The translations under genes and the position numbers were made by a program. Source: Branchiostoma floridae (lineage: Eukaryota; Chordata; Leptocardii; Amphioxiformes; Branchiostomatidae). From it: DNA of 64,000 nucleotides. The notes beneath the pieces were generated by a model that saw nothing but the letters and a program-made list of their open reading frames with translations, searched no databases and was not told the DNA's origin. Numbering within the stretch: position 1 is the first letter of the stretch; every line of letters begins with the position of its first letter. This document shows positions 10,762-54,300 of the stretch, in pieces. The stretch lies in assembly GCF_000003815.2 (NCBI RefSeq), contig NC_049979.1:6354196-6418195 (forward strand). The letters are read 5' to 3'.

Positions 10762-12482
10762 GGGTTTGATGAAAGAGCTGGGCTGTCTACCTGGGCTGTC
10801 TACCTGGGCTGTCTACCTGGCCTGGCTATCACGTCAGGCTACTCAGATCCCCCCATTCAAAGCCTCATCATATGGCACTCAGCTGATTGACAGGCATAGT
10901 AATTGCTAATCTCCAACCTGCCAGTGACCTGAGGCTGGCCTGTCCATGTACACCACTGGCTGGGCCCTTCGGGAATGTGTCTGGGAGGCATTCCTTGCAG
11001 GAACACAAGTACCAGCACTGTGTGTAGTAATAATTATGGGGATGTGTCCTAGATCTTAATTTTGAAGCTGTTTAGTCTTGCATTGCAGGACTACATGTAT
11101 TCCTAAAAGCTGTTAGTCAGGACTATTCCTAAAATGAAGTATTTGCAAAGTAACAAATGACTCTGATTTCACATGTTATATAAAACCTAGTCTAGAAGAT
11201 ACTCCTTTATCATTCTATTTTGCAAAAAGATTTTATAACGGTAAGGTTTTCTTGTTATTTTGGCAAGATGGCATCACTAGTATATGTACTAGATTGGTCT
11301 GAAAATTGCAAGCTAGTAATTACTTAGTATTTTGTTTGTTCATATATGCCCCTGTGGTGAAATCTTGCCTGGCCAATCTTCTCGGACTCCTACCTTGTTG
11401 TGTTGTGTAAATGTTTGACCTAGAAAACAGAGGTCCTGGGTTCATATCCTTTGACATGTCACAAAAGCTGTGCTGGTGATACAGGACTTTCCCCACTCCA
11501 TCCAATTGTACAAGGGAGTTGGAGAGATTATTGGCAGTGGAAGGAGAGGATTGGGCTCTGTCCTGGACACAAAAATTGTCCAGTGGATAACAATCTAAAA
11601 GGCTATGTGACTACCGACAGGGTCCTCCCCAGAGGATGTAACAAGGGCGGCCCTCCATTATGTTCCTGGCCCAGCACCACTATAACGTTACTACTTTTAA
11701 CGTTACTAAATTTAGTGTGTTTCTTCCTATTTTCCTGGTTGGGTTTGCTAAAATTCATGACAATTCACAGATTGTTGTGCCAAGCGGTGTCACTTTTCCA
11801 ATCAGCATTGGCTGCAAAAACTTGTGAATGGGCGATGATCAAAACAATAGTTTTAACTATTGTTAAAGGAATTGCTATTATTCTCGGAGAACTTGACACA
11901 TTCTGTCATTGCAAAATGATCCCATTTTCATAAAAACACTTAAACATCGCAAACGTGTTTACTTCACAATCTTTACACTTTACAATCTCAACTTGTCAGA
12001 AAATAAGATTAGGTTTTCCAAAAAATAGTCATCTTACCGTCAGGTCATTTTTGCCAGTCTCTCCACTTATATACTAAAAATTATGGGGAGAAACCTGACC
12101 GAGAGTATACACGAGAGTGTATATGTCAATATGGCATACTAGTATAGAGATCAAGGAGGTACATGTAATTATACCCCCCTTGGTCAGTACAACTTTAGCT
12201 TTACAGTGATTTATGCTCGTCTTTCTTGTTGTGCGAGCTGATATTTTCTGTCCTACAAGACACATTCCCGAAGGGCCCAGCCAGTGGTCATGGCAGATGG
12301 ACAGGCCAGCCTCAGGTCACTGGCAGGATGGAGATTAGCAATTACTATGCCTGTCAATCAGCTGAGTCCCATATGATGGGGCTATAAATGGGGGGATCTG
12401 AGTAGCCTGACGTGATAGCCAGGCCAGGTAGACAGCCCAGGTAGACAGCCCAGGTAGACAGCCCAGCTCTTTCATCGAACCC
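10762..12482. mobile_element. Mutator-like / foldback DNA transposon, non-autonomous
   Basis: Long terminal inverted repeats occupy 10762-10982 and 12258-12482. They start GGGTT(T/C)GATGAAAGAGCTGG and align over about 220 bp at roughly 90% identity by eye. Both ends are flanked by the same 9 bp, TTCCCACTG (10753-10761 and 12483-12491), which is a target site duplication. Long termini of this size with 9-bp duplications are typical of Mutator-like and foldback elements. Each terminus holds three tandem copies of a 13-bp unit (GGGCTGTCTACCT), as foldback elements often do. The interior encodes no recognisable transposase, so the element would need a partner for movement. A 480-bp MITE sits inside it. 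Confidence 0.85.
11618..12097. mobile_element. MITE with CAGGGTTCTCCCC ends, copy A (nested)
   Basis: The ends read CAGGGTCCTCCCCAGA and TATGGGGAGAAACCTG in inverted orientation. They are flanked by an exact 5-bp duplication ACCGA (11613-11617 and 12098-12102). The interior is homologous to the copy at 29817-30203 but about 90 bp longer. It lies inside the Mutator-like element and so inserted later. An open frame of 160 codons here (11451-11933) spans the element boundary and is therefore not a gene. Confidence 0.85.
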
Positions 12483-26406: not shown

Positions 26407-28224
26407 ACAGGCTTGCTTTGTCAATGGCGACGCTTAGCGACTTTTAGTAGTACTGCACCCAGGCGTTTACACATTTGACTAAAACAGTCATGTAACGTTA
26501 AAGTTAATATCCTTATAAGCCGGTAATCTGTAGAGAGGTTATAGCCACGGATAGTTTTGTTTGCGTTGCACAGACTAACAGTAACAGTAGTAAATCAGGG
26601 AGGCTATTTCCCTTTTTTATTTATACAATTGTATAACATAAACCTAACTTAATGCCCAGTGTTCTCTTTTATGACACTTTAGTGTGATACAAAGATGCAT
26701 TGTTTATGTGGCATGTTTTCCCTTATCCTTTCTTTGATTTCAATCGAACGCGTTGATTCATTTAAGAATTGCAAAATAATCATCAACTTCGGTTTGGCTA
26801 GGACACATCAAGGAGGTTGAAAGAGGGGACACATACATGATCAGCCAATGTTGCCCAACTAGTCACAGTAAGTGGGTAGCTGTCATCAATTAGCTAACCT
26901 TTGGAGAAAATAGATTCAATAGGTTACACAATCAATAGGTTAATAGGCTTAAAAGAACATTCATATATTTTTCAGACATCTGTATTTGATTAAAAAGTAC
27001 TCCACCTATCTATGTGTTGGTGTTTTTTTTTCTGTAACTTTTTTTTCCCTATCTTTTCTAAACAGACCTTTGTAGTACAGACAACACAACTAATGTCTTG
27101 AATGGAGATGCGCAGTCATCATTAAACTACAGCATGATTTGTTTATTCGTTAGCATAAATGACAAGATAGTCAAGTCCATATGGTAGAGAGTAAAACAAA
27201 AACACTGTCTTGTAATAAGTTCTGATACATTCACCAATGTTTTTTGGCTTGCTAGTATTTTGAACTACACACAAACTAAAGGCTAAAATTAATTAATTCA
27301 TCAAGGAGAAAAAAAATTGAAGCATCCAACTAGGGCATGTGTAACAGAGCAACCAAAGGTGGTCTAACTTGTTGGACTTATGTGACTGTCTTTTTCCTGG
27401 GATTTAATCAAGGATATTTACACAGCACCATACATAACAGAAAGGCAAGTCTGCCACCCATCTGTTTTTGTCATCTGTAAGTGACCTGTATCTTAGACTG
27501 AGTAGACTGTGAGTAGACTGCAATGTACATAAATTTTCCAAATCACAAGTGTGAGTTCATTTTTACACTTATTTGCAATGACACATGAAGATATAAAACT
27601 AAGAAATGTTATTCAGACTTGGATGCAGCCACATTTGACTTCTGTCAGAGTCAACTGTATAATAAAGAGTTACTGCTAGGATCCCTGAGGTTCACAATAT
27701 AGCACTAAGTTACAAACTCATATGGTATCATAGTCACAATTCAATTGCATACTGGGATACGAACTTTAGCTGAAAATGACTAGAATACACCTCTTATGCA
27801 GGTATTTCACTGGGGCATGCCTGATGGTCACTGTTTGCTAATGTCATTTGCCAATTGGTTGTGACCTGGTTGCCAATGGATGACAATTTGTTGCCAGCAC
27901 TCCCATTCTCTTAAATTTAAAAAAAAAAAATTATTCTAAGTTAAAATGTGGTAAAATGCAGACAATGGGCACAAATGAAATGCCAAAATAGGGGCCAATA
28001 GGCACCAATGGATGCAGACAAGATGCTAACAGGCACCATAATTTTGCAAAATATAATGCCAGTTTCAAGGTTTGTGTGAACATTTCATGAGAAGCTCAAA
28101 TCGGCATGTGGGCCGCTTTCCCTTACTTACCGGTATATGAAGGAAGAGGGGTCAAACAAGGGTATAACAAAAGTTTTTCAATCACAACACCTCTCTTTCT
28201 GATGCATTGTCTTTTGATTCAATG
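26407..28224. other. Intergenic region, nothing recognised
   Basis: AT-rich sequence between the unidentified gene and Gemin8. A motif CAAGGAGGTTGAAAG near 26807 also occurs in the palindrome at 28225. No exon or full repeat boundary could be supported. Confidence 0.4.
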
Positions 28225-36061: not shown

Positions 36062-39000
36062 TCAAATTAAACACAAGGTTCCCCACTTACCCCGATGCTT
36101 CTCCAGCTTTCCTCTCCGAGATGCAATAAGACGTTCCGTTTTTTCAAAAGTAGATATCAGTTTTTTAAAGGCCTGGAAGTTTATTGTTTTTAAACGTCTA
36201 CACCTGAAAATGAAAACTTTGCCTAACAAAATAATTAAATTTTTTAGGGGGGGCGTATCTTGACATGTATCTCCAAATATGATTATAAAGGGGTTAAGGT
36301 TACAGTCTATAGAAGTTTGTACTTGTAGCCAACTCTCTACCTCATTCCAAAAAGGTACTACGTGTGGACACTCCCAGAAAACATGAATATAGGATTCTAC
36401 ATCATCGTGACAGAAAGAACAGGAGCTAGAATCTACCAATTTCCATATATGTAAAATTCTGTTACAAGGTAAAAATTTGTTGATTAAACGATATTGAAAA
36501 TATCTAGTACCGGGATCAATAGTGCATCTATATAAATTTGTAAATACTTCCCGCCATGGTATATCTTTATCGAAATAATAAAACCAAGAAAGTCTAGTAT
36601 TATGTGCAACACTGACCTCGTTCATGGACGTAAGAAAGTAGATATACATGCTTTTGTTGATCTTTATGTTTCGTAACCATTTATAATTTTTTTGAAAGGG
36701 TAGGCACACAAGGTCTTTCCGCTTCTCAGTGCTAAGTATTTTTTTCCATTTACCGGGAATAGCTGAAATAAGTTGTAGATATCTATGTTGGTCACAAGCA
36801 TTTGGGTAGTTTATACTGAACTCATCATAAGACATAAAATTACCATTCGGGGATAGCAAGTCATTTATGAAATAGATATTTCTATTCAGAAAAGAAGTCA
36901 TACAAACAGTTTTACCATCAATGATAATATTAGAGTTTAAACAAATTACTTGCTGTCGTATATTTGCCGGCGTCGTGGGCTCTACTTGCTTAAATTTGAA
37001 CCAGGCCATAAACACTTCAGAAAAAAATCCTTTTAAACAAAGGTTTTTCCCCGAAGACAGCTGGTAAAAGGGAAATAAACTATGACTAAGTTGAGGGTGG
37101 AAGACTGTTACCCAAGAGGAGAACCACTCGGGATGAGAATAAAGTTTAGGCACCCATGAAGCTTTTATAGAAGTGTTGAATGCACGTAAGTTTTTTAAAT
37201 TAAGTCCTCCGTTTTCAAATTCATTGTATAATACCTTCCGTGCAACTCGTTCCGGACCGTCGTCCCAAATAAAAGAAAATATCTTCTTTTCATATTCTTT
37301 GAAAAAGGAATCGTTAGGGGATGGTAACACTTGAAATAAATTCGTAAACTGGGGAACCACCAAGGTGTTAATAATAACAATTTTACCATACAGGGACAAA
37401 TATTTATTCTTCATAGGGCGTAATAATCTATCTAGTCTTTCCATACGGGGTTCGAAATTAACGTTTGTGATTAAGTTTAAATCAACAGGGATATTGATGC
37501 CTAGAAGGTCGACATCCCCGTCAACCCACTGTATCGGTAGATGGGTGGGCAAACGAAAATTAGATAACTTCAAGGGGCCTAATCGTAATATTTTGCATTT
37601 ATCTACATTTAAAGAAAGACCTGAGATATTGGAAAAACGCTCTAAATCAGACAACAAGGCATAAAATGACTCTAACTTTGGTTCGAACGGAAAATTTGAA
37701 TCGTCGGCATATTGTGATATCTTTGTAGTCTTTTCGTATATCCTTAACCCCCGTATGGAATGATTAGACCTGATCTTAATAGCAAGCACCTCCACCGCCA
37801 CGAGAAAAAGATAAGGGGACAATGGACATCCCTGGCGAACTCCGCGATATAAATTGAAGGGGTCTGAAATGTAACCATTGTTTATAACGCAACTCGCTGT
37901 TTTTTTATATAAAACCTTTACCCATTTAATTAGTTGTGGACCAAAGTTAAAGAATTCTAAACATTTAAACATGAAATCCCACCTCAACGAATCGAATGCT
38001 TTCTTGAAATCAGCTACAAATATTAACCCAGGTTTGTTCTCTTGATCGTAATGCTCTATTGTATCTAATAATCTTCTAATGTTGTCGCCTATATACCTAT
38101 CCTTAATAAACCCAGTCTGATCCTCTCCAATTATGTCCGTGATTACATGTTTGATTCTAAGAGATATGCATTTTGAAAGTATTCTCGTGTCACAACCTAA
38201 AAGGGTAAGCGGGCGCCAATTTCCCATGGCGGTTGGGTCCTTGTCTATGCCTTTACTGTCTTTTTTGAGTAGCAATGAAATCAATCCTTTTCTTTGAGTT
38301 TCTGACAGATATCCATTAACAAACGAATAATTAAAACAAGTTAACATAGGCTTTTTAAAGACATCAAAAAAATTCTTATAAACTTCTACAGGTATACCGT
38401 CAAGCCCTGGTGATTTCCCAGCCTGAAATGAATATATTGCATTTTTCAATTCTTCTTCACTTACTAGACCTTCACAAAGTTGCTGTTGCTCATCTGATAA
38501 ACGTTTATCGTAGTCCTCGGGGAAAAAACCATCACAATTTACATCAGAAAGAGGCATTGGAATATCTTCAAAAGAGTAAAGTGCAGAATAAAAATTAACC
38601 TGATCAGAAAGAATGTCTTTTGGGTTACATGTTACCTCACCCGAGGGCCTTTTGAGTCGTTGTATATTTTTTCTTGTATAATTACGGTGGATTAGATTTA
38701 TAAAATATTTGGTGCACCTTTCCCCCAGCTCCATCCAACGTGATTTAGACCTTAACAAGATACCATTCAGACGTTCATTATATAAAGATTCTAATAACTT
38801 TTGTTTATGATTTAATTCTTCTAGTTGGGCGGGTGGGGGAGAGGCGGCACTATCAATTTGACTCTGCAACATATTAATTTCGTCAATAAGTTCTTTTTCT
38901 TTCATCAGGTATTGTTTCTTTCTCCAGCTACTAAATTTAATACAGTGACCACGAAAAAAGCACTTCGCCGCATCCCAAACAACTTGAGGATTTGCGGTGT

Positions 39001-39838
39001 TGACATTATTTTCGAAAAATTCTGACATAATTTGTTTGGTCTGTACAAGAAAAAGTTTGTCATCAAGAAGGGATTGATTAAATTGCCAGTAGCCAGGCCC
39101 TCGCGGAAAGTCCGCCGTAACAAAAGACAAGGTGATTAGATTGTGATCTGATCTTAATTTGTCTGCAATAGAACACTTATTAACTCTGTTTAATAATGAA
39201 AAGGATATCAGAAAATAATCTAGTCTACTAGCATAGAGCCCCCGACGCCACGTATATCGAACAACATTAGGGTTTCTAAAACGCCACACATCATACAAGT
39301 CGAATTTTCCTTTTAGCTCCGAAATAGCTTCTAGTGCGTTAGGGTGATAATTTCGAAGTCGAGCACCTGATCTATCCATGGCTGAATTCTGCACTGTATT
39401 AAAATCTCCCACCACAACTAAATGTTCATTACTAATCTCAAGAGTATCTATAGCTTCTTCTAATTCCTTAAAAAAGGACGGACAGTCATCATTTGGAGCA
39501 TATAAGTTCGCAAGACAAAAATGTAAATTGTCTACCTCGATGTCTAACACAATCCACCGTCCACTTTCATCCGTTTTAACCTGATGAACCTGAACGCTGG
39601 CGCTACTCTTTATCAAAATAGCTACCCCTCTTTGATTTGAAGTACCATGGGAGAAGTATATTTGTCCACCCCATTCGTTCTGCCATCTTTTTTCATCTCT
39701 TACAGTTGTATGTGTTTCTTGTAGACAATATAAGTGGTAAGGTTTGTCTTTTAACCAGGTAAATAGTCCCATTCGCTTATGGAAATCCCCCAGCCCATTA
39801 CAATTGTAACTAGAAATTCGACACTCTACCTTAGACAT
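36062..39838 (-). CDS. L1-type ORF2: endonuclease and reverse transcriptase
   Basis: 1258 residues, uninterrupted. The N-terminal apurinic-type endonuclease (about 1-235) shows SYNCNGL, the catalytic glutamate in LQETHT, VVGDFN and the terminal SDHN. The reverse transcriptase (about 450-730) shows GKSPGLDGIP, FVADFKKAFDSLRWDF, GVRQGCPLSPYLF and the catalytic QYADD at 709-713. A C-terminal zinc-knuckle-like CSFCHDDVESYIHVFWECPH follows at about 1160-1185. Domain order and length fit the L1/Tx1 group. All catalytic residues I can check are present, so the protein may be active. Confidence 0.95.
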   Translation of the reverse strand: MSKVECRISSYNCNGLGDFHKRMGLFTWLKDKPYHLYCLQETHTTVRDEKRWQNEWGGQIYFSHGTSNQRGVAILIKSSASVQVHQVKTDESGRWIVLDIEVDNLHFCLANLYAPNDDCPSFFKELEEAIDTLEISNEHLVVVGDFNTVQNSAMDRSGARLRNYHPNALEAISELKGKFDLYDVWRFRNPNVVRYTWRRGLYASRLDYFLISFSLLNRVNKCSIADKLRSDHNLITLSFVTADFPRGPGYWQFNQSLLDDKLFLVQTKQIMSEFFENNVNTANPQVVWDAAKCFFRGHCIKFSSWRKKQYLMKEKELIDEINMLQSQIDSAASPPPAQLEELNHKQKLLESLYNERLNGILLRSKSRWMELGERCTKYFINLIHRNYTRKNIQRLKRPSGEVTCNPKDILSDQVNFYSALYSFEDIPMPLSDVNCDGFFPEDYDKRLSDEQQQLCEGLVSEEELKNAIYSFQAGKSPGLDGIPVEVYKNFFDVFKKPMLTCFNYSFVNGYLSETQRKGLISLLLKKDSKGIDKDPTAMGNWRPLTLLGCDTRILSKCISLRIKHVITDIIGEDQTGFIKDRYIGDNIRRLLDTIEHYDQENKPGLIFVADFKKAFDSLRWDFMFKCLEFFNFGPQLIKWVKVLYKKTASCVINNGYISDPFNLYRGVRQGCPLSPYLFLVAVEVLAIKIRSNHSIRGLRIYEKTTKISQYADDSNFPFEPKLESFYALLSDLERFSNISGLSLNVDKCKILRLGPLKLSNFRLPTHLPIQWVDGDVDLLGINIPVDLNLITNVNFEPRMERLDRLLRPMKNKYLSLYGKIVIINTLVVPQFTNLFQVLPSPNDSFFKEYEKKIFSFIWDDGPERVARKVLYNEFENGGLNLKNLRAFNTSIKASWVPKLYSHPEWFSSWVTVFHPQLSHSLFPFYQLSSGKNLCLKGFFSEVFMAWFKFKQVEPTTPANIRQQVICLNSNIIIDGKTVCMTSFLNRNIYFINDLLSPNGNFMSYDEFSINYPNACDQHRYLQLISAIPGKWKKILSTEKRKDLVCLPFQKNYKWLRNIKINKSMYIYFLTSMNEVSVAHNTRLSWFYYFDKDIPWREVFTNLYRCTIDPGTRYFQYRLINKFLPCNRILHIWKLVDSSSCSFCHDDVESYIHVFWECPHVVPFWNEVESWLQVQTSIDCNLNPFIIIFGDTCQDTPPLKNLIILLGKVFIFRCRRLKTINFQAFKKLISTFEKTERLIASRRGKLEKHRGKWGTLCLI

Positions 39839-40711
39839 ATTCTCTGGGAGTTTAAACGTCTCGGAGAGGAAGCTTGGGTCAGGTCATCGGGGCACAGGAT
39901 TCTCTCTGGTGATACTGCTGGTACATAACTATAAGTAAAATAAACTAGGGGAACCGTCAAACATAAACATAAAATGGTAAAGCATAATTGAATCAGAATA
40001 TAAATAATGATAACAAAATAACGGAACAATTCGTACCATAATTCAAGTGAACTCAAATGCAAACTAAGAAATACGTAAACATAAGTAGTGCATCGGTGTT
40101 TACCAAATGATAGTTCCATAAAGTATGTAATCAGATTGACAAAATGATACGCAACATAATTTTCTGTTACAAAACATAAACTAATTGTGAACAGAAAGTA
40201 ATCAAACTGATCAAATAAGTAAGTCATATCCTTCCTATTGAAACTTAAATCAAAGACTGAGTTCACGTCATATTTCGTCTTAATAACAATTTCTGTGGCT
40301 GAATCTTTGCATGATTTAATGGAGGCTCTGTGACAATAAAAACAACACAAAAAATAACAAAGAACAACAAGTTTCCTTGGCTGACCCATTTGCCATAAAG
40401 AGGACAGCGCTACCCTAGGCTTACATGTTAACTGAACAAGTCAATCGATAGTAAGTAGAAGATCCATGTTTCAAATGATTTCTTTAATTCACAATATATA
40501 GATGAACTTGATAGGATGGGAATGTATCGCATGTAAAACAGTCAGCCGCTTCTACATCACAACAGAGTCCAACAGGGGAAGAATCCATCTCATTAGCATA
40601 ACAAAGCTAGAAACTCGTGTTTTAAACAGGTGAGGATTCTTCCCGTGGAGATCGAGAAAGACTTGTGGATTTCGTAAAACGGCAATTTGACAAAAAAAGT
40701 CAATAACAAAC

Positions 40712-41518
40712 TTAAGTGAGTTCTTCGACAGAATCGATACTTTTGGTAGTTTTATCAGCCAAAGTTACCATGATTCTACAGTTGGCATCCACCCATGCGT
40801 CCTTGATACGACCATTCTTCTTGGCAGTAAACGCCGCTGAGAAGATCGTCATATTCTCTCTGGTAAGATCAGCTAAGACCAGGAGGGGCCTGTCGTGTTC
40901 ATCCCGTTTACCCTTGAGTTTACTCCGTGCGCGAAACACGCGGTTCCGGTCCTGCCAGGATACAAACTTGACTAGCATCAGCCGCGAAGCGTTCTCCTTC
41001 CTAGTGCCGACTCGGTGCGCTCGGTCGATGCACTGTGGTTGTAAATCCAGGCCCAGTTTCACTCTGCAGAAAGTCACTACCTTGTGTACACACATCTCTC
41101 CCGTTTCCTTGTCGACCTCAGGAATGCCACGAATGCGCAGACTATTTCTGCGGGAGTACTGCTCCAAAGCGTTAATTGAGTTACTCACGGCCTTTGATGG
41201 GAGGGGGGTAGTCTCCATGTTCTGAATTTTACCTTCCACGGTCTCCATTCTCCTTTCCAACTCCCCCTGGCGTTGAAACATCCGTTCTAAATCTTGGCGC
41301 AAAGACTGTACGTCCCTCGCAGTTGCCATGTCTTTGAGTTTTTCATGGACGGGTTGTAGTGCAGCTTCTATGGTGACTTTTATCTCGCCCAACATTGAAT
41401 TTCCTGCCATTGTGCGCTCACCGGTTAAATGTCCAGAACTTTCCAAGTCGTCGCTTCCAGAACGTCTTTGACGCTTCTTAGACCGTGTTCTAACCATTAA
41501 CCATCCGTCTGTAGACAT
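40712..41518 (-). CDS. L1-type ORF1: RNA-binding chaperone-like protein
   Basis: 268 residues. A basic N-terminus (VRTRSKKRQRR) is followed by a heptad-like helical region (about 45-115). Next comes an RRM-like domain with YSRRNSLRIRGIPE and IDRAHRVG, and a basic C-terminal domain. This is the L1 ORF1p (Transposase_22) layout, an RNA-binding trimer that packages the element's RNA. The frame is intact and starts 95 nt from the element's 5' end. Confidence 0.9.
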   Translation of the reverse strand: MSTDGWLMVRTRSKKRQRRSGSDDLESSGHLTGERTMAGNSMLGEIKVTIEAALQPVHEKLKDMATARDVQSLRQDLERMFQRQGELERRMETVEGKIQNMETTPLPSKAVSNSINALEQYSRRNSLRIRGIPEVDKETGEMCVHKVVTFCRVKLGLDLQPQCIDRAHRVGTRKENASRLMLVKFVSWQDRNRVFRARSKLKGKRDEHDRPLLVLADLTRENMTIFSAAFTAKKNGRIKDAWVDANCRIMVTLADKTTKSIDSVEELT

Positions 41519-42461: not shown

Positions 42462-42675
42462 CAGATTATATAAAATTACAGTAAGAATATGTGCAATGTA
42501 TTTTAACACTTAACAGCTATACAACTGAGCATGTGCCACAGGATATTTCACAGGCTCTACACTTGTGGCAACTTAATCAAGTTTAGATATTCACATGTTT
42601 TGTAATGGTCCAATAATATTCCTCATGGTATCCCCCCCATTACATGACTTAAAATCAATGATCTTTTAAATGTAC

Positions 42676-44780
42676 TTAAGGCACGGTTTAAGGTCTTCAA
42701 CTCCCTTAGGAAGCAAGGTAAAACTGTGGAAGCAATGGTCGCAAAAACTGCCTACAATGAAGCCAAACGCCTTGCTAAGCACGCTGTCTGGCTGGCCAAA
42801 TCTGCAGCAGAGAAAGAGACTTTTGCTGTCATCAATCCTCAAGGTGCAGATGTGTACCGCATAGCCAAACAGATGGAGCGTTCCAACCAGGACGTTGTAG
42901 GCGAAATGTGCGTTCGGAACGATGCAGGTGAACTCTCCCTCAACGACGAGGATAAGATGAAGGCCTGGGTCGAACACTACAACAGGCTCTTGAACGTGGA
43001 GTTTGACTGGCCAATGGATGAGCTTCCAGAGGCTGCTCCAGTTGTAGGACCTGCTCCACCAGTCACTACTGAGATGATCAGCAAGGCACTGAGTAAGATG
43101 AGGTTTGGAAAAGCTGTGGGCCCTTCTGGCATCAACGCTGAGATGCTAAAGGCAGCTGGCGAGGAGGGCATCGAGTTGACTAGACAACTGACTGAAGCGG
43201 TCTTCAGGAACGGAACTGTGCCGGTTGAGTGGGAGAAGAGCATCATTCTCAGTCTCTACAAGGGGAAAGGCGAAGCTCTAGACCGAGGCAACTACAGAGG
43301 CCTCAAGCTCACCGACCATGTCATGAAGTTACTGGAGCGTGTGCTGGACTCAGCTATTCGTAAGATGGTCAACATCGACGACCTTCAGTTTGCCTTTGTG
43401 CCTGGCAGAGGCACCACCGATGCCATCTTCATTGTGCGCCAGCTGCAAGAGAAGTTCATAGCCGCAAACAAACCTCTGTACTTCGCCTTTGTCGATCTGG
43501 AGAAGGCCTTCGATCGAGTTCCCAGAAGGGTGCTGTGGTGGGCACTGAGAAGTCTTGGTGTTGAGGAGTGGGCCGTGAGGGTGATCCAGGCCATGTACGC
43601 AAATGCCAGGAGCCGTGTGCGAGTGAACGGACAGTACAGCGAGGAGTTCGGCGTTGGTGTTGGCGTTCACCAGGGATCTGTCCTCAGTCCCCTGCTGTTC
43701 ATCCTCGTTTTGGAAGCTCTGTCTCGTGAATTCCGCACTGGAGTCCCCTGGGAGCTCCTGTACGCAGACGACCTGGTGATCATCGCAGACACCCTGGAAG
43801 AATGCATCGCTAGACTGAAGGCATGGAAGTCGGGCATGGAACGCAAAGGCCTGCGGGTTAACATGGGGAAGACAAAGATCATGATTTCTGGTCAAGGACT
43901 GAACAAACTGAAGGAAACTGGATCTTTCCCGTGTGCTGTATGCCGTTCTGGGGTGGGTGCTAACTCCATCCAGTGTACAGTTTGTAACTTCTGGGTCCAC
44001 AAGAGATGCTGTGGCATAAGAGGGAGTCTGCTAGCTGTTCAGAACTACACATGTCCGAGGTGTCGAGGGGAAGCTAGGCCACTGGATGGCCGCCCTACAA
44101 CACAAGTCACTGTGGATGAAGTGGTCCTGGACGTGGAAGCCAGCTTCTGTTACCTTGGGGACATGCTCTGTGCTGGTGGCGGATGTGAGCTTGCAGTCAC
44201 CACCAGATCCTGCGTTGCCTGGGGTAAATTCAAGAAGCTCTTGCCCATCCTTACTTCCAGGCACCTACCCTTTAAAACCCGTGGCAAGGTGTTTGACTCC
44301 TGTGTACGTGCGGCCATGCTTCATGGGAGTGAAACCTGGGCACCTACCACCTCGGATCTACAGCGGTTGCGCCGCAATGACCGTGCCATGATCAGATGGA
44401 TTTGTGGCGTCAAACCCCGGGATGAGACCCCTTCATCTAGCTTACTTGATAAACTTGGTATTCTGGACATCATCTCAGTGCTGCAGTCCCGCCGTCTTAG
44501 ATGGTTTGGGCATGTTGAAAGATCTAGTGACTGCATTAATAAGATCACCAAACTGAAAGTATCGGGCAACAGAGGTCGTGGTAGACCTAGGAAAACCTGG
44601 AGGGACTGTGTCAGCAGGGACTTGAAGGAGTGCGGTCTGACAGGGGTCGACCCACTGGACAGAGCCAAATGGAAGCGGAGTGTGAAGACTGGCCGACTGC
44701 TGCCTACCCCTGCATCAGGGAACCCAGCAGCAGTATAATCTAACCATGGATAGAAGAAAAGAAGAAGAACCCTGAGGTAC
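42676..44780 (+). mobile_element. 5'-truncated non-LTR retrotransposon
   Basis: Homology to non-LTR elements begins abruptly with ARFKVFNSLRKQGKT and runs through a complete reverse transcriptase frame. It ends in a short GAAGAAAAGAAGAAGAA tail rather than poly(A), as in RTE/Ingi-like groups. The endonuclease is missing, so this is a dead-on-arrival copy. No target duplication is obvious. Confidence 0.8.
42726..44738 (+). CDS. Reverse transcriptase with internal PHD-like zinc finger (5'-truncated)
   Basis: 670 codons without interruption. The frame is open back to 42648 with no ATG at its head, because the element lost its 5' part. Reverse transcriptase motifs present are GKAVGPSGINAEMLK, LYKGKGEALDRGNYRGL, VPGRGTTDAI, FVDLEKAFDRVP (aspartate at 257), HQGSVLSPLLF and the catalytic YADD at 346-349. 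Residues 403-446 hold CAVCRSGVGANSIQC, then VCNFWVHKRC and CPRC, a Cys4-His-Cys3 arrangement like a PHD finger, inserted in the thumb region. The C-terminus (RRLRWFGHVERS, RGRGRPRKTWRDC) is typical of RTE-related elements. Long antisense frames at 43350-44000 and 44321-44782 are shadows. Confidence 0.9.
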   Translation: MEAMVAKTAYNEAKRLAKHAVWLAKSAAEKETFAVINPQGADVYRIAKQMERSNQDVVGEMCVRNDAGELSLNDEDKMKAWVEHYNRLLNVEFDWPMDELPEAAPVVGPAPPVTTEMISKALSKMRFGKAVGPSGINAEMLKAAGEEGIELTRQLTEAVFRNGTVPVEWEKSIILSLYKGKGEALDRGNYRGLKLTDHVMKLLERVLDSAIRKMVNIDDLQFAFVPGRGTTDAIFIVRQLQEKFIAANKPLYFAFVDLEKAFDRVPRRVLWWALRSLGVEEWAVRVIQAMYANARSRVRVNGQYSEEFGVGVGVHQGSVLSPLLFILVLEALSREFRTGVPWELLYADDLVIIADTLEECIARLKAWKSGMERKGLRVNMGKTKIMISGQGLNKLKETGSFPCAVCRSGVGANSIQCTVCNFWVHKRCCGIRGSLLAVQNYTCPRCRGEARPLDGRPTTQVTVDEVVLDVEASFCYLGDMLCAGGGCELAVTTRSCVAWGKFKKLLPILTSRHLPFKTRGKVFDSCVRAAMLHGSETWAPTTSDLQRLRRNDRAMIRWICGVKPRDETPSSSLLDKLGILDIISVLQSRRLRWFGHVERSSDCINKITKLKVSGNRGRGRPRKTWRDCVSRDLKECGLTGVDPLDRAKWKRSVKTGRLLPTPASGNPAAV

Positions 44781-48300: not shown

Positions 48301-51300
48301 TTCAGTTGGAGATTTTTCATAACATATTCAACTTTTTTTCATGCATTTTCTTTCGAGGTGATTGATAAATCCTGCTACACGTATCCTATATTGGATTTCC
48401 CTGCATGTTTGTCTAACCTGCACTTAACTGCTAGAGGGAAAGGTAACTATACACGTAGTCCTACAACTACCAAATCATAGCAAACCATAAAACACATTGA
48501 TAAATAGACCATTACACACATCCTTCCCCAATCTAACAACCTTCCCTCTCACCCCCTAAAACACTAAAGCTGCATTTATAGACAAGCTGACTACATGGTT
48601 GCCCCGTAGCTGTGCACCCCTGCTCCCTGGTGTCACTCCTCTGGGGTCACCTGGCTAGATGGTGGACAGGTGAGCGTCTGTGGTCCGTCCCACTAAATGG
48701 CTGTCGGACAGACCAGGAAGGAAACTTGTTACTTCTGATGGAGGCCCGCTTTGGACTACCATGTCTCTTTGGAGCATCTTTCTGTATTTTTCTTTAAGGT
48801 CAAACAGCCAGATCTCTTTGAAACCAGATTTTCTTCAGTTGCCTTTTGTGCTGCCATTTATTTTATATTGATATTCCCATAACTTTGGGGGCCATTCATG
48901 AAATTTCATTGCACCCAAGACCTGAAATATTTATTTACATGACACTTTGAAGAAATCATATTTTAAATGTTCTGTAGCTTAGGCTTTCATTTATAGCATT
49001 CTTACATTACTTGGGATAGTAAGATCTTTTACAAGGTCTGTATTTACATACTTTTGCTTCCCAATTCTTTATTCAATCTTCATGTCTTTACCTTATTCCA
49101 GAAATTATAGAAAAAGAAAGAGTAATAAGTAGACTGTCCAGCATTATCACCATACAGGTACTTTAATCCATTAACAGCTTACCTGGATTTTTCTTGCATG
49201 TCTGGCCTTGGATTCTTGGGTTGCCGATATATCCTGGAGCACATCTGTAGAAAAAAGGGCATAGACTATGAACAGACTACCAAACTTGGACAATTGAACA
49301 TGATAAACAATTACTTCTCATTTCAACACATACATGTAACTCTAGTTCGGCTTTATACGCCAGGTAACCTTTATCCGTTGTGTTTGAGAACAGGGGTACC
49401 AAGTTAACTAACAGTTCATGGTTTCAAATTATAATATATTCCCAATATGGCAGTTTCAAAAACCTCCTTCTGTCAACGTGGTATCCCTAAAATCCATGTT
49501 TTAGAAAACAACGGATACACGTTACCCTGCGGATAAAGGTGAACTAGCGTTAGGTCCAGCATCATGGGAAGTTAACAACCCTGGTGTAAAGGCTGTGTTG
49601 AAAATGGAGTGTACTTACGTTCCACAGTCCCTGCCCATGTAGCCTGCTGGACAAGCTGTGCAGGTGGGTTTGCCATCAACATCCAGCACGCATGTGGGGG
49701 AGAACCTGCCAGGCAACAACAAAGTGCCTTTAGTTAGTACACCATTGACTCATAAGACTCTAGTAAAGTGGGTTGGAGTCACAGAATCTGCTGAAGTTTT
49801 AGAGCTCAGCTTTCTAGCTGAGTGTCATGTAATGTTATCACATCATGGTACTTCAAAGTCATTTCTTAACATGTTTGCATTAGTATATAAAGGATGATGC
49901 AAAAACTGGAAATTTGACACTGTGCTATGGGGTTTCTGTACAGACGTTGCTGTTGCCATCATGCTCTTGTCGCATACACCTATTTACTAGTGCTTTTTCA
50001 GAAGGAACTGCTTGATTAGTTCTTGTCAATGCATGCGTAAGTATGATCTAAGTGTACAATTTCACAGACATCACAATTCTAAAGCTTACTGATTGGATGG
50101 AATGGCCAGGGGGCATGGGCACCGCTTGCAGTCCCTGTAGGTACCAGATGTGGCATCTCCATAGAAACCAGGCGAGCACTGCTCACAGAACTGGCCTACG
50201 GTGTTGTGGAGACAGTTCTGGGGAGGATAGGAGTAAAAGATGTCTGTCAGTTACTTCCAGTTTCACTTCATATTGTATGTAATATCCAACAGATGTTGGA
50301 GAATCACATGTAGTACTTATGGTAGACTTCAGTGGACCATGATTAAGCAAAGAGTCATACATTTAATATATATTAGATCAATTCAGTAACCAGTAAAGAA
50401 TATAATTGAGTCATCACCTATATTCTGTGGCCCTAATGTCTGGAGGAACAACCTACAAATGTACCACCACATACACTTATGGCTCCAAATCTGACCTGCT
50501 TTAAGAGACTTTTGAAGTAAAAAAATTGACCAAAACGAATGGACACAGACTATGAATGCTGAGCTTTCGCTCTACTAATGTTTTGCACCACGTATATGTA
50601 GTGATGTATCTTGATAGATTTATTATAGTCTGTGTAACGCAAACTCCGCTATCCGGAACTGGTAGGCTCCTCCCGGCAATGAAGGACTGGCCTAAGAAGC
50701 GTGATTAAATCAGGCTAGATTTATTAGGACTCGATGTAATCTGTACCTCTGTTATATTCTTATCTGACCCTCTCTGTTATATTCTTATCTGACCCTTCCC
50801 TCTTCCCTCATGACCTCAATGAAAATCGGCCTGCAGGCCCATTTGAGCTTCTCATTAATAAATAAATGTTCAAACAAACAAACCTGACATCTGCCATTGG
50901 GGCATGTTGATGAGTGGCCGTTGCACATGGGGCAAGCAGAAGGCTCGTGGCGCTTGCAGTCCTGGGCCGTTCCCTTGGTGGCATCACCAGTGTAGCCAGG
51001 ACGGCACACCTCACAGTGGGGGCCTTCTGTGTTGTGATTACAGTTCTAGGAAGGGAGGGAAAAGAAATGCGGTGCACTGCTTTACAAAACCGAAATCGTG
51101 TTCAGTCGATATTGTGACATTTAAGTAAAGACAACTGCCAGTTTTTAAGAAATGTGGAGGTTCCTCCATAGGATACCTTCACATGCTTGAAAGCAAAGAC
51201 AGAACAATAATTCCAAACTATTTGCAGTTGAAAAGTACCCTGTGATGTCACAATGTCACTATTTGATGACCTACCAGACACTGTCCTTTGCTGTCACAGG

Positions 51301-54300
51301 TCGAGGAATGGCCGTTACATTCACACGGTTTTGTCCCTGGTTTGTCAGTGGGCTTTACCACTGGCTTATCAGTAGGCTTAGCCTCTGGTTTGTCAGTGGG
51401 CTTAACCTCTGGTTTAGCAGTCGGCTGTTTTGTCTCCGTAACCTTAGGTTTGCAGTCATTTGGTGTTCCCTTCTTAGCGTCTCCAATGTAGCCAGGGGCG
51501 CAACGTTCACAGTTAGGGCCCTCTGTAAAATGCTTGCAGTCCTGGAGAGCACAGTGGAATATAGCATAGCAGAAAAGCATTTTAAACTCTACAACTTAAA
51601 AGTCAACAGCTGATTTAAGTAAGCGGTCAAAGCTGAACAGCATTCACTATTGAGCATTGTGCCTGACATGACATATAAGTTAGATGGCAGTCAAATGGTA
51701 TTTTCATGGACTCTACTTGTAATTCTTGCATAGGAGAGAAAGACATGCGTTTAAAAGCTTCTTGAATGATGAACGTGATATCATGCATTGCAAGCCCGCA
51801 TTTCCAGAGAATAGCAAGACACAATTACAGATGTTAAGATACTAAAGAGAGTATCATAGAAAGTGTAAGATGTGCTGCTTTGCTGTCACAGGTGTCTATC
51901 TGTGGTGCTGAAGGTCAGTAGGGGGTGCAGAGATATTTCACTTTCATTCAATATTGAGTCCTACACCTGTATGGCCTCTGTTGTACAGTTCATGCATCCA
52001 CAATTGTTCTAGTATAAAAGGTCAATAAATCCAAGCTTCCCAAATCCGTATACACAGTCTACTTCCTGTAAGTCCTATTTTACGGCTTCTAGACTAATCT
52101 CCGAGCAGATCCTACGTTAGCATAAGATAGTATCAAAAGGTGGCAGAGGAGTGAAGTGGCTTAGGAGTGTGTTTCGCTACTGTCCGTGACCAGAACAAGT
52201 CCCAGTTGGAAGTTAGCACCAAACAGGAAGGAGGGCAATTAGTCTTATGCCATTGTAGGATCTGCTTGGAGATTATTCTAGACCACAGCAGCTGCTGTTA
52301 ACTGCTGATCTATGTTAGTTGTTATCTCCTCACCAGACATTTGCCAGAATTGTCACAGAGGTCAGAGTGGCCATTGCAGAAGCATGCTGGGATAGGTTTG
52401 CAGTCTAAAAAGGTTCCCTGGGTGGCGTCTCCTCGGTAACCCGGCTTGCACTTCTGACACTTGGCCCCCTCCGTGTTATGTTTGCAGTTCTGTGCGAGGA
52501 ATGTTGGCAGTTAGCAGGATTTAAATTAGCCATATATGTTTGTTTCCTTAAGGCAGCAGAGCATTACTACCAGCGATACAGTGCTAATACCATACACACG
52601 TAGCTTGCAGGTCTATTCATAGATGTAACATTAGTTCACCTTCATCCACGGGGTGACCTATATTCGTCGATTATAGGTATATATCGTGGGATAGAGATAT
52701 CTAGGGATGTCAATTTGACCGACAGTGGTTTCCAATTGCGATGTTTTCAAAAGAGATTGCACTTTGAAACCACCGTCCGATGACTTGATATTCCTAAATA
52801 ACCTGTATTTGAAAATGGCGGACATAGGTTACCCCGTGGATAAAGGTGAACTATCGTTATGGTTCCCACTCATGTAACCAACTGACTGTGTCGAAAGATA
52901 CATCTGAATGCACATACCGGTAAGTATTAGCTTTAGAAATTATCATCATCCTTACCAAACATTTGCCTTCACCATCACACTGAGTGGCGTGACCATTACA
53001 GTCACATGACACCCTAGGCTTGCAGGCATCGGCTGTGGCCAGCTTAGCATTACCAGAGAAGCCAGGTCTACAGCGCTCGCAGTTCCGCCCTTCCGTGTTG
53101 TGCTCACAGTTCTGTACACAAGAGAAATGTACAGTCAGATGAAAATGCATTCTAATAGATTCCAAATTTATATTGTAGGAGGCAGTTTGATGGTCACAGG
53201 ATGCCACTTTGAAATCTACAGACTTGACAGATGTGGAATGTTGATTGAATGATGAGACTGAGTGCAAGTTTCAGCTTGTTTCCCACTTTCTGCTAGGTGA
53301 AGTGGGCAGACAAAAATCATGTTACCAGGAATGGCAGGTCTTTGTATTGGAGTATTGCAACCTTGATGATGATGATCTTCATGATAGATGATATCTGGCA
53401 ATGTATTATACAATGTAGACTGCCACCAGTTGTCCCACCTTCAGATGATAAGAGAAGATGTGGTTCTCCATTTGAAAGGAAATTGAAAGGAAATTGTAAG
53501 TGCATACAGTGCAACAGAATGTTAGAAAGTGTGCTATAGAGATGGGGGCCTTGTGCTTGAATGATATTGTGTGCTCCATGTTATAGAAAAGTGCATCTAT
53601 TAGGGACAGACCAGGAAAAATCACAGTGGGAGTTGCAAATGTTGGTAAAGTTATAACTTTTTGTTAAGTTTTCCAAAATTATTTTTCTTCTAATGTTCAT
53701 ATGATTTCTTGCAACTGCCCATAGATGATTTTTCGTTGCCCATTCCGATGGTGCTGTGCTTGAGAACATTGTCAAGTGATAATTAAAGTGATATGAAAAA
53801 TAAGGTCAGTATAAAATCATGCTGCTGTCTCCTAACCAAGCAGTTTCCATCCTTGTCACAAGTTGTTGAATGCCCGTTACAGTTGCAGGGTTTGGGCTGG
53901 GATATGGGTTTGCAGGCATCCTTTTGTCCACTGGTGGCATCCCCAACAAATCCAGCCTGGCATCTCTCACACTGGGGGCCTTCGGTGTTGTCCTCACAGT
54001 TCTGTTTTGGGCAGGGCCAACAAGATGTAAAAATCACTCACCAAAAAACACTGAGATTCATCATTGATAATATCAGTAAACGTGTAGAATGTTCCTAAAT
54101 TAAATCTGTTGCACCATTCCTGGTTTTCATGGGAGCAGAGTTTCTTGCCAGGAACATAAAACAAAAACAGGCCTCCTGTCCAATTTAAAAATAGATTGGT
54201 TAACAAAGATGTGTCGCATCGATGGCATACACAGACCTGCAAGAGAACAAAATTCAACTTAAAGTTTGTCAATCGTAGGAGAGAATGTGTCAAAGGGTTT

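Follow-up and report, generated by a model that had tools for sequence, protein, structure and literature searches.

Laminin-type EGF exons of the window

The minus-strand gene of the window (the whole 64-kb stretch of DNA analysed here) contains a row of laminin-type EGF (LE) exons, 14 of which end in phase 0 before a GT. LE exon 14 (50884-51045, minus strand, 162 nt, phase 0) ends AGATGTCAG, encoding R-C-Q, and the gene-strand sequence across its end reads AGATGTCAG/GTTTGTTTGTTTGAACATTT, where the slash marks the exon-intron border. The final CAG of the exon is followed on the minus strand by the intron start GTTTGTTTGTTTG. The predicted 5' splice site, CAG/GTTTGT (50878-50886, minus strand), has its exon part at 50884-50886 and its intron part at 50878-50883. 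Downstream lie intron 14 (50218-50883, minus strand, 666 nt), about the first quarter of which is occupied by a LINE, and LE exon 15 (50090-50217, minus strand), which has the acceptor CCCCAG/AACTGT and, as read from the sequence, an inferred donor CA/GTAAGC. The neighbouring sibling, LE exon 13 (51275-51541, minus strand), has the usual donor CTG/GTAGGT.

The placement of the exon 14 border at 50884 in the original prediction proved correct. In a first test, the 13 other same-phase exons were found to end at the identical position of the domain, G-x-C-[L/I/V]/GT. In a second, the joining of exon 14 to exon 15 (acceptor edge 50217) gave an uninterrupted laminin EGF domain, which matched EGF_LMN_ATRN in Pfam with an E of 4.6e-13. 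In a third, exon 14 by itself matched EGF_LMN_ATRN (E 1.5e-8). Alternative GTs located 4 and 8 bases further in the tail shift the frame and meet stops, which also argues for the earlier border. A junction 12 bases further keeps the frame open, but no GT is present there, and the Pfam scores were lower than at 50884 for both EGF_laminin (22.0 vs. 29.4 bits) and EGF_LMN_ATRN (44.4 vs. 49.5 bits).

The introns of the 13 siblings start with GTAA, GTGA, GTAC, GTAG, or GTTA, and GTTTGT is exclusive to exon 14. The last exon residue is also changed, as had been noticed earlier, and is Gln in exon 14 instead of the Leu (11 of 13), Ile (1 of 13), or Val (1 of 13) of the siblings.

Two repeats were observed in this part of the gene. 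A tandem repeat with a 24-nt period (51337-51426) lies within LE exon 13 and codes for a PT-like stretch between two EGF parts. Intron 14 contains a perfect 11-nt inverted repeat, ACACAGACTAT and ATAGTCTGTGT, at 50543-50553 and 50625-50635, and TAGTCTGTGCAACGCAAAC at 26548-26577 (minus strand) is related to it. No RNA families were found in 50200-51100 at E up to 1.

LINE fragment at the donor of exon 14

The plus strand of the window contains the LINE 3' tail (CAAA)3C at 50871-50883, which reads GTTTGTTTGTTTG on the gene strand. The tail sequence, CAAACAAACAAAC, has this single plus-strand occurrence in the 64-kb window, and its reverse complement is absent from the window. The adjoining base, 50884, is the final base of exon 14, and the earlier claim that the LINE tail ends exactly at the exon border was thus confirmed. 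The tail terminates a 5'-truncated LINE 3' fragment (50716-50883, plus strand, approximately 168 nt) that is antisense to the gene. Its homology to several genome copies extends to 152-155 nt before the tail, and one single alignment extends further, to 348 nt before it; the left edge of the fragment is accurate to a few bases only. An exact 25-nt tandem duplication (50747-50796, plus strand) lies inside the fragment and is absent from five long aligned copies.

A second, diverged copy of the LINE tail is present at 28070-28169 (minus strand), with a local score of 35, compared to at most 22 in 500 dinucleotide shuffles. Searches for the tail yielded none in viral contigs and 19 matches in prokaryote contigs, which, over 25 bases of flank on each side, showed no relationship outside the pattern itself. 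A search of papers for the tail sequence strings returned one match, which was unrelated.

The window harbors other elements. A LINE-like ORF of 1273 aa (36062-41518, minus strand) encodes endonuclease, RT, and zf-RVT domains (Pfam), is preceded by a 268-aa ORF, and has an A-rich tail; this element, which we take to be L1/Tx1-like, is different from the LINE at exon 14. Another RT ORF, of 696 aa (42648-44738, plus strand), contains a PHD finger after the RT (Pfam 7e-6). Two arrays of the 13-nt unit CTGGGCTGTCTAC, each with approximately 3.9 copies (10778-10828 and 12416-12466), are inverted and located 1.6 kb apart, and are perhaps the ends of a DNA element.

LINE family across the genome

The window's own assembly (G000, 513 Mb, 431 contigs) was searched, and 40 of 2124 first-look candidates were scored. 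At least 44 matches were listed, and 40 of these, including the window itself, cover the tail region. Most of the 40 listed matches stop at query base 283-284, corresponding to window positions 50882-50883, and a few continue one to seven bases past the exon border. When the 39 other listed copies were fetched and lined up, the length of (CAAA)n was found to vary and the flanks were unrelated; the border in the window is therefore a real retroposon end. These observations also bear on the possibility that the donor expanded into the GTTTG run as a simple repeat, with no LINE involved. Short tetranucleotide runs can arise spontaneously, but up to 155 nt before the run are common to other genome copies, in which the homology does not continue past the tail, and the run is the sole one of such length in 64 kb. 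A simple-repeat origin is therefore extremely improbable, and is refuted by the shared end of homology, the variable (CAAA)n, and the unrelated flanks.

The 5' truncation points of the family varied, with edges located 32 to 467 nt before the tail in the 86 copies whose 5' edge was supported by three partner alignments. The longest word common to both flanks, counted without a shuffled control, was at most 6 nt in 79 of these 86 copies and at least 7 nt in the other 7, and reached 17 nt in L038. In other copies, the four-base repeat of the tail can break off at any phase. Two copies (L060 and L037) contained a common open frame, recognised by eye, that resembles the C-terminal part of a CR1/L2-type reverse transcriptase and ends 253 and 235 nt before the tail, respectively. 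Judged from its sequence, the window element is a non-LTR retrotransposon (LINE) that appears CR1/L2-like, the clade being suggested by resemblance. The flanks of 70 copies showed an excess of A at positions 2 to 4, and no clear insertion target motif was found among the copies' flanks. AG preceded an in-phase tail in 7 of 31 cases, and in 4 of 28 (P 0.10) when the window and two copies from an AG-requiring pattern were removed; this AG signal was not counted as evidence.

Several copies were observed near apparent exons. The sense copies L086, L117, L121, and L075 end approximately 18-28 nt upstream of apparent exon acceptors in their 3' flanks, and tails may therefore be common near exons on the acceptor side too. 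Antisense copies were located approximately 14 nt (L046) and 27 nt (L096) inside an intron, each behind an apparent coding exon in the 3' flank with its own donor (CAAG/GTCAGT and CAG/GTAATT, respectively). A 5'-truncated copy (L085) lies within an exon-like unit, and an uninterrupted second unit further along the same locus represents an empty site, without a clear target duplication.

Coding exons with an antisense tail at the donor

Nine coding exons, including that of the window, have an antisense LINE tail 0-4 bases into the intron. This count was judged by eye and covers 109 distinct copies and 19 donor-pattern places. The 109 copies consist of the window, 39 found by similarity, 2 retrieved with a pattern that requires CCT after the tail, and 67 retrieved with two exact patterns (36 and 75 places, of which 30 and 50 were examined; 13 of those 80 repeat the similarity sample). 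Exon-abutting tails were called on the basis of an open frame and, in most cases, also an acceptor, which gave three loci among the 39 (L044, L049, and L063) and two among the 67 (L077 and L131), plus the window. The donor pattern, AGGT followed by a tail within six bases, occurred at 19 places, 7 already sampled and 12 new. Five of the 19 are clear coding exons (L063, L131, L150, L152, and L159, the last three from the new loci), five represent a single repeated stretch (L153-L156 and L161), and nine are unclear or non-coding (L031, L034, L067, L068, L081, L151, L157, L158, and L160). The copies of the repeated stretch have in common an odd tail, GTTTGTTGTTTG, beside AG; four also have a long non-coding flank in common, of which the fifth has only the last bases, and they are probably copies of one insertion that spread with its surroundings.

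The exons identified by sequence include parts of DMAP1 (E 3e-20), NDUFA4 (E 2e-5), the SID1 transmembrane family (E 0.005), a protocadherin-like protein (protocadherin-15, E 3e-7), and a BTB/BACK (KLHL-like) protein (BACK, E 6e-7), with L150 and L159 identified through PDB sequences. The peptides of L044, L049, L150, and L159, as well as a 24-residue peptide of L077, were not recognised by Pfam, and a 31-residue L077 peptide matched Cadherin at 4.6e-6, just below the curated cut-off. The calls for L044 and L049 were based on frame, acceptor, and following exon, and that for L131 on an open frame and the junction only, with an exon-scan score of -1.0. The acceptor of the L159 exon is atypical and A-rich. 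A further locus, L134, with AGG/GTTTG behind an open frame, was excluded from the exon set as unclear.

The following exon was found in frame behind the LINE in NDUFA4 (FYSPNIDYKKL, approximately 960 nt on) and in the cadherin (VEDINDSAPYF, approximately 335 nt on); their introns are therefore longer than the LINE. This has consequences for the idea that the LINE made the intron itself, in the manner of an introner, as might be suspected from a tail that supplies the donor and from the recurrence of LINE-tail donors in several genes. The position of intron 14 is common to 13 other LE exons, its 666 nt far exceed the approximately 168 nt of the LINE, and the introns of L063 and L077 are likewise far longer than the LINE, all of which makes such an origin very improbable.

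The recurrence of LINE tails at donors is directly visible in these nine exons, and their enrichment there is likely. An exon score above 10 was obtained for 4 of 106 junctions (the window and the two CCT-pattern copies being left out) compared to 24 of 5743 pseudo-junctions (P about 0.001). The score was designed with the cases already known; the pseudo-junctions, in which tails were moved along flanks, came from longer-flank loci and overlap, and neighbouring ones are not independent. The excess was weak among the 67 copies not chosen by similarity, where one was above the score threshold (P 0.24), and two when the eye-judged L131, with its score of -1.0, was added (P 0.03); counting back the 13 copies common to both samples gave 2 of 80. 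The recurrence may reflect either a preference of the LINE for donors or mere survival of the insertions there.

Displaced donors and the origin of GTTTGT

The far end of the LINE was aligned with five long copies at five loci, including the window. A donor-like site was present directly behind the LINE 5' end at two of the five, L077 and L049. In L077, the LINE ends with CAAATC and is followed by A-GTAACTG, which gives an empty site of GAG/GTAACTG, the present donor being GAG/GTTTGT. In L049, the LINE ends with CATTT, AGGTAGGTCTG comes next, and the displaced donor-like site is AGGTAGGT; taken with the present CAG/GTATGT, this fits a duplication of five bases (AGGTA) flanking the LINE and gives an empty site of CAG/GTAGGT. 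With old donors visible behind the LINE at these two loci, donor replacement by this LINE family does happen. In L063, the joined flanks give AAG/GTGATAG with no duplication, and the GTG of the donor was kept from the target. The far-end reading of L044 is uncertain. Neither a target duplication nor a displaced old donor was found in the window intron, where either the old donor was lost or the left edge of the LINE is misplaced. Taken together, the joined sequences indicate that the LINE family inserts into 5' splice sites and that its tail provides the positions after GT, GTA, or GTG.

The original prediction that the GTTTGT donor was made of retrotransposon sequence held in part. The assignment of intron bases +3 to +6 (TTGT) to the LINE tail is supported by the sequence comparison, but that of the GT at +1/+2 is not, as these two bases could be tail or a remnant of the old target donor. 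The GT may survive from the old donor, given that L063 and L049 keep a GTG and a GTA that are readable as target. An argument from register was dropped as proof: in eight of the nine exons (all except L063), the four-base repeat of the tail and the exon border share one register, which first suggested that the GT was always tail, but L049 can be read equally well with a target-derived GTA.

A related alternative holds that the old donor was already GTTTG and served as a primer annealing site for (CAAA)n RNA, in which case the LINE would lie a few bases into the intron and would have supplied no functional donor. A tail and a GTTTG target are indistinguishable by sequence, parts of the L063 (GTG) and L049 (GTA) donors belong to the target by the joined-flank reading, and the free phase of the tails in other copies is also compatible with it. 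On the other hand, a GTTT start was found in 0 of 13 sibling donors, and the displaced site of L077 is GTAACTG, and therefore GTTTGT at that locus is not ancestral beyond GT. On balance, a pre-existing GTTTG is unlikely.

Exon end and U1 pairing

The pairing of CAG/GTTTGTTT with the U1 5' end was -7.5 kcal/mol, compared to -4.5 kcal/mol with an exon end of CTG or TTG; the final CAG thus provides 3 kcal/mol more U1 pairing than CTG. The range in the 13 siblings was -4.1 to -9.1 kcal/mol. At the two loci with a displaced site, pairing was weaker for the new donor than for the displaced one (-8.3 vs. -11.8 in L049 and -6.1 vs. -6.6 in L077). An AG exon end was present in 9 of 9 donor-abutting exons compared to 0 of 13 sibling LE exons; three of the nine came from a pattern that requires AG, and six (the window, L044, L049, L063, L077, and L131) were found without asking for it. 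The suggestion that CAG compensates for a weak donor is sound in energetic terms, and the AG ends are in agreement with it. A strong exon end that makes up for GTTTGT would fit whether it arose after the insertion or was required for the insertion to survive.

These values are also relevant to whether the donor of exon 14 is dead and the arrangement functionless, with either exon skipping or gene decay. GTTTGT is a weak hexamer, and exon 14 lacks one codon relative to its 13 siblings (C-P-N-G vs. C-x-x-x-G). Nevertheless, neither the reading frame nor the cysteines are disrupted in exons 14 and 15, which form a full LE domain, and with CAG the U1 pairing falls within the sibling range. We consider loss of function quite improbable.

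Proposed history of the exon 14 donor

Starting from the observed tail, exon border, frame, and family, and from the sister cases, two of which retain a displaced donor-like site, we consider it likely that a truncated LINE landed antisense at the existing donor of exon 14 and that its tail now forms most of the donor. A 5'-truncated non-LTR retrotransposon copy would have inserted antisense into an existing laminin-EGF intron, either exactly at the exon border or no more than about two bases from it. We infer that target-primed reverse transcription, the usual LINE mechanism, would have started at the 3' end of the exon, which would explain why the (CAAA)n tail, read as GTTTGTTTG on the gene strand, abuts the exon. 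Because the tail reads GTTTGTTTG, the intron would still be defined by a GT donor at the same place and in the same frame, a donor presumably used in vivo. Positions +3 to +6 would come from the LINE tail and +1/+2 from the tail or the old donor remnant, with the CAG exon end, acquired before or after the insertion, offsetting the weak GTTTGT. The same event at eight or more other exons suggests that the antisense tail may act as a ready-made donor, letting insertions at 5' splice sites survive.

Comparison with known systems

CR1/L2-type non-LTR retrotransposons have short tandem-repeat, microsatellite-like tails, are heavily truncated at the 5' end, and seem to cause little target duplication. 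The window LINE family resembles them in its heavy 5' truncation and its microsatellite-like tail, and may also have a low level of target duplication.

New exons and introns are known to arise from mobile elements, but donor replacement by a LINE tail seems little described, and a limited search of the open-access literature found no case in which the donor of an existing coding exon was replaced by a LINE repeat tail. The arrangement offers a specific explanation of how an insertion expected to break a gene can be tolerated, and eight further loci, two of them with a displaced donor visible, are available for testing donor replacement. A broader generalization is more tentative: the antisense tail, as a run of ready-made 5' splice sites (one GTTTGT per four bases), might allow the LINE to hit existing donors recurrently, with gene-breaking insertions removed by splicing at the site where they land. 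In that case, LINE tails would regularly renew donors in the course of 5' splice-site evolution, perhaps with the help of an insertion bias toward the donor regions of transcribed genes.

In the available text of PMC7951965, TE exonization and TE-derived splice sites in disease are described for Alu, MIR, L1, and L2 3' ends (DBASS). The window is similar in that LINE sequence, as with the L2 3' ends, is predicted to give a 5' splice site. The cases in that portion of the source concern aberrant or cryptic sites and pseudoexons, whereas here a host exon lies at its usual place and only the donor would be LINE-made. In TE exonization, the mature mRNA includes TE sequence; exon 14 codes for laminin EGF, and most of the 40 listed matches stop at or just before its border.

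Introners, in the available text of PMC9860276, carry or borrow splice sites while making new introns, and some families carry one site and co-opt the other. The LINE in the window resembles them, as far as that text goes, in that a splice site is supplied by a mobile element, which would itself be spliced out. In contrast to the introners described there, which make new introns, the intron here pre-existed and is much longer than the element: its position is common to 13 sibling exons, and the LINE takes up approximately a quarter of it. Taken from the sequence, exon and intron both appear to be old in the window, and the donor alone seems to have been exchanged.
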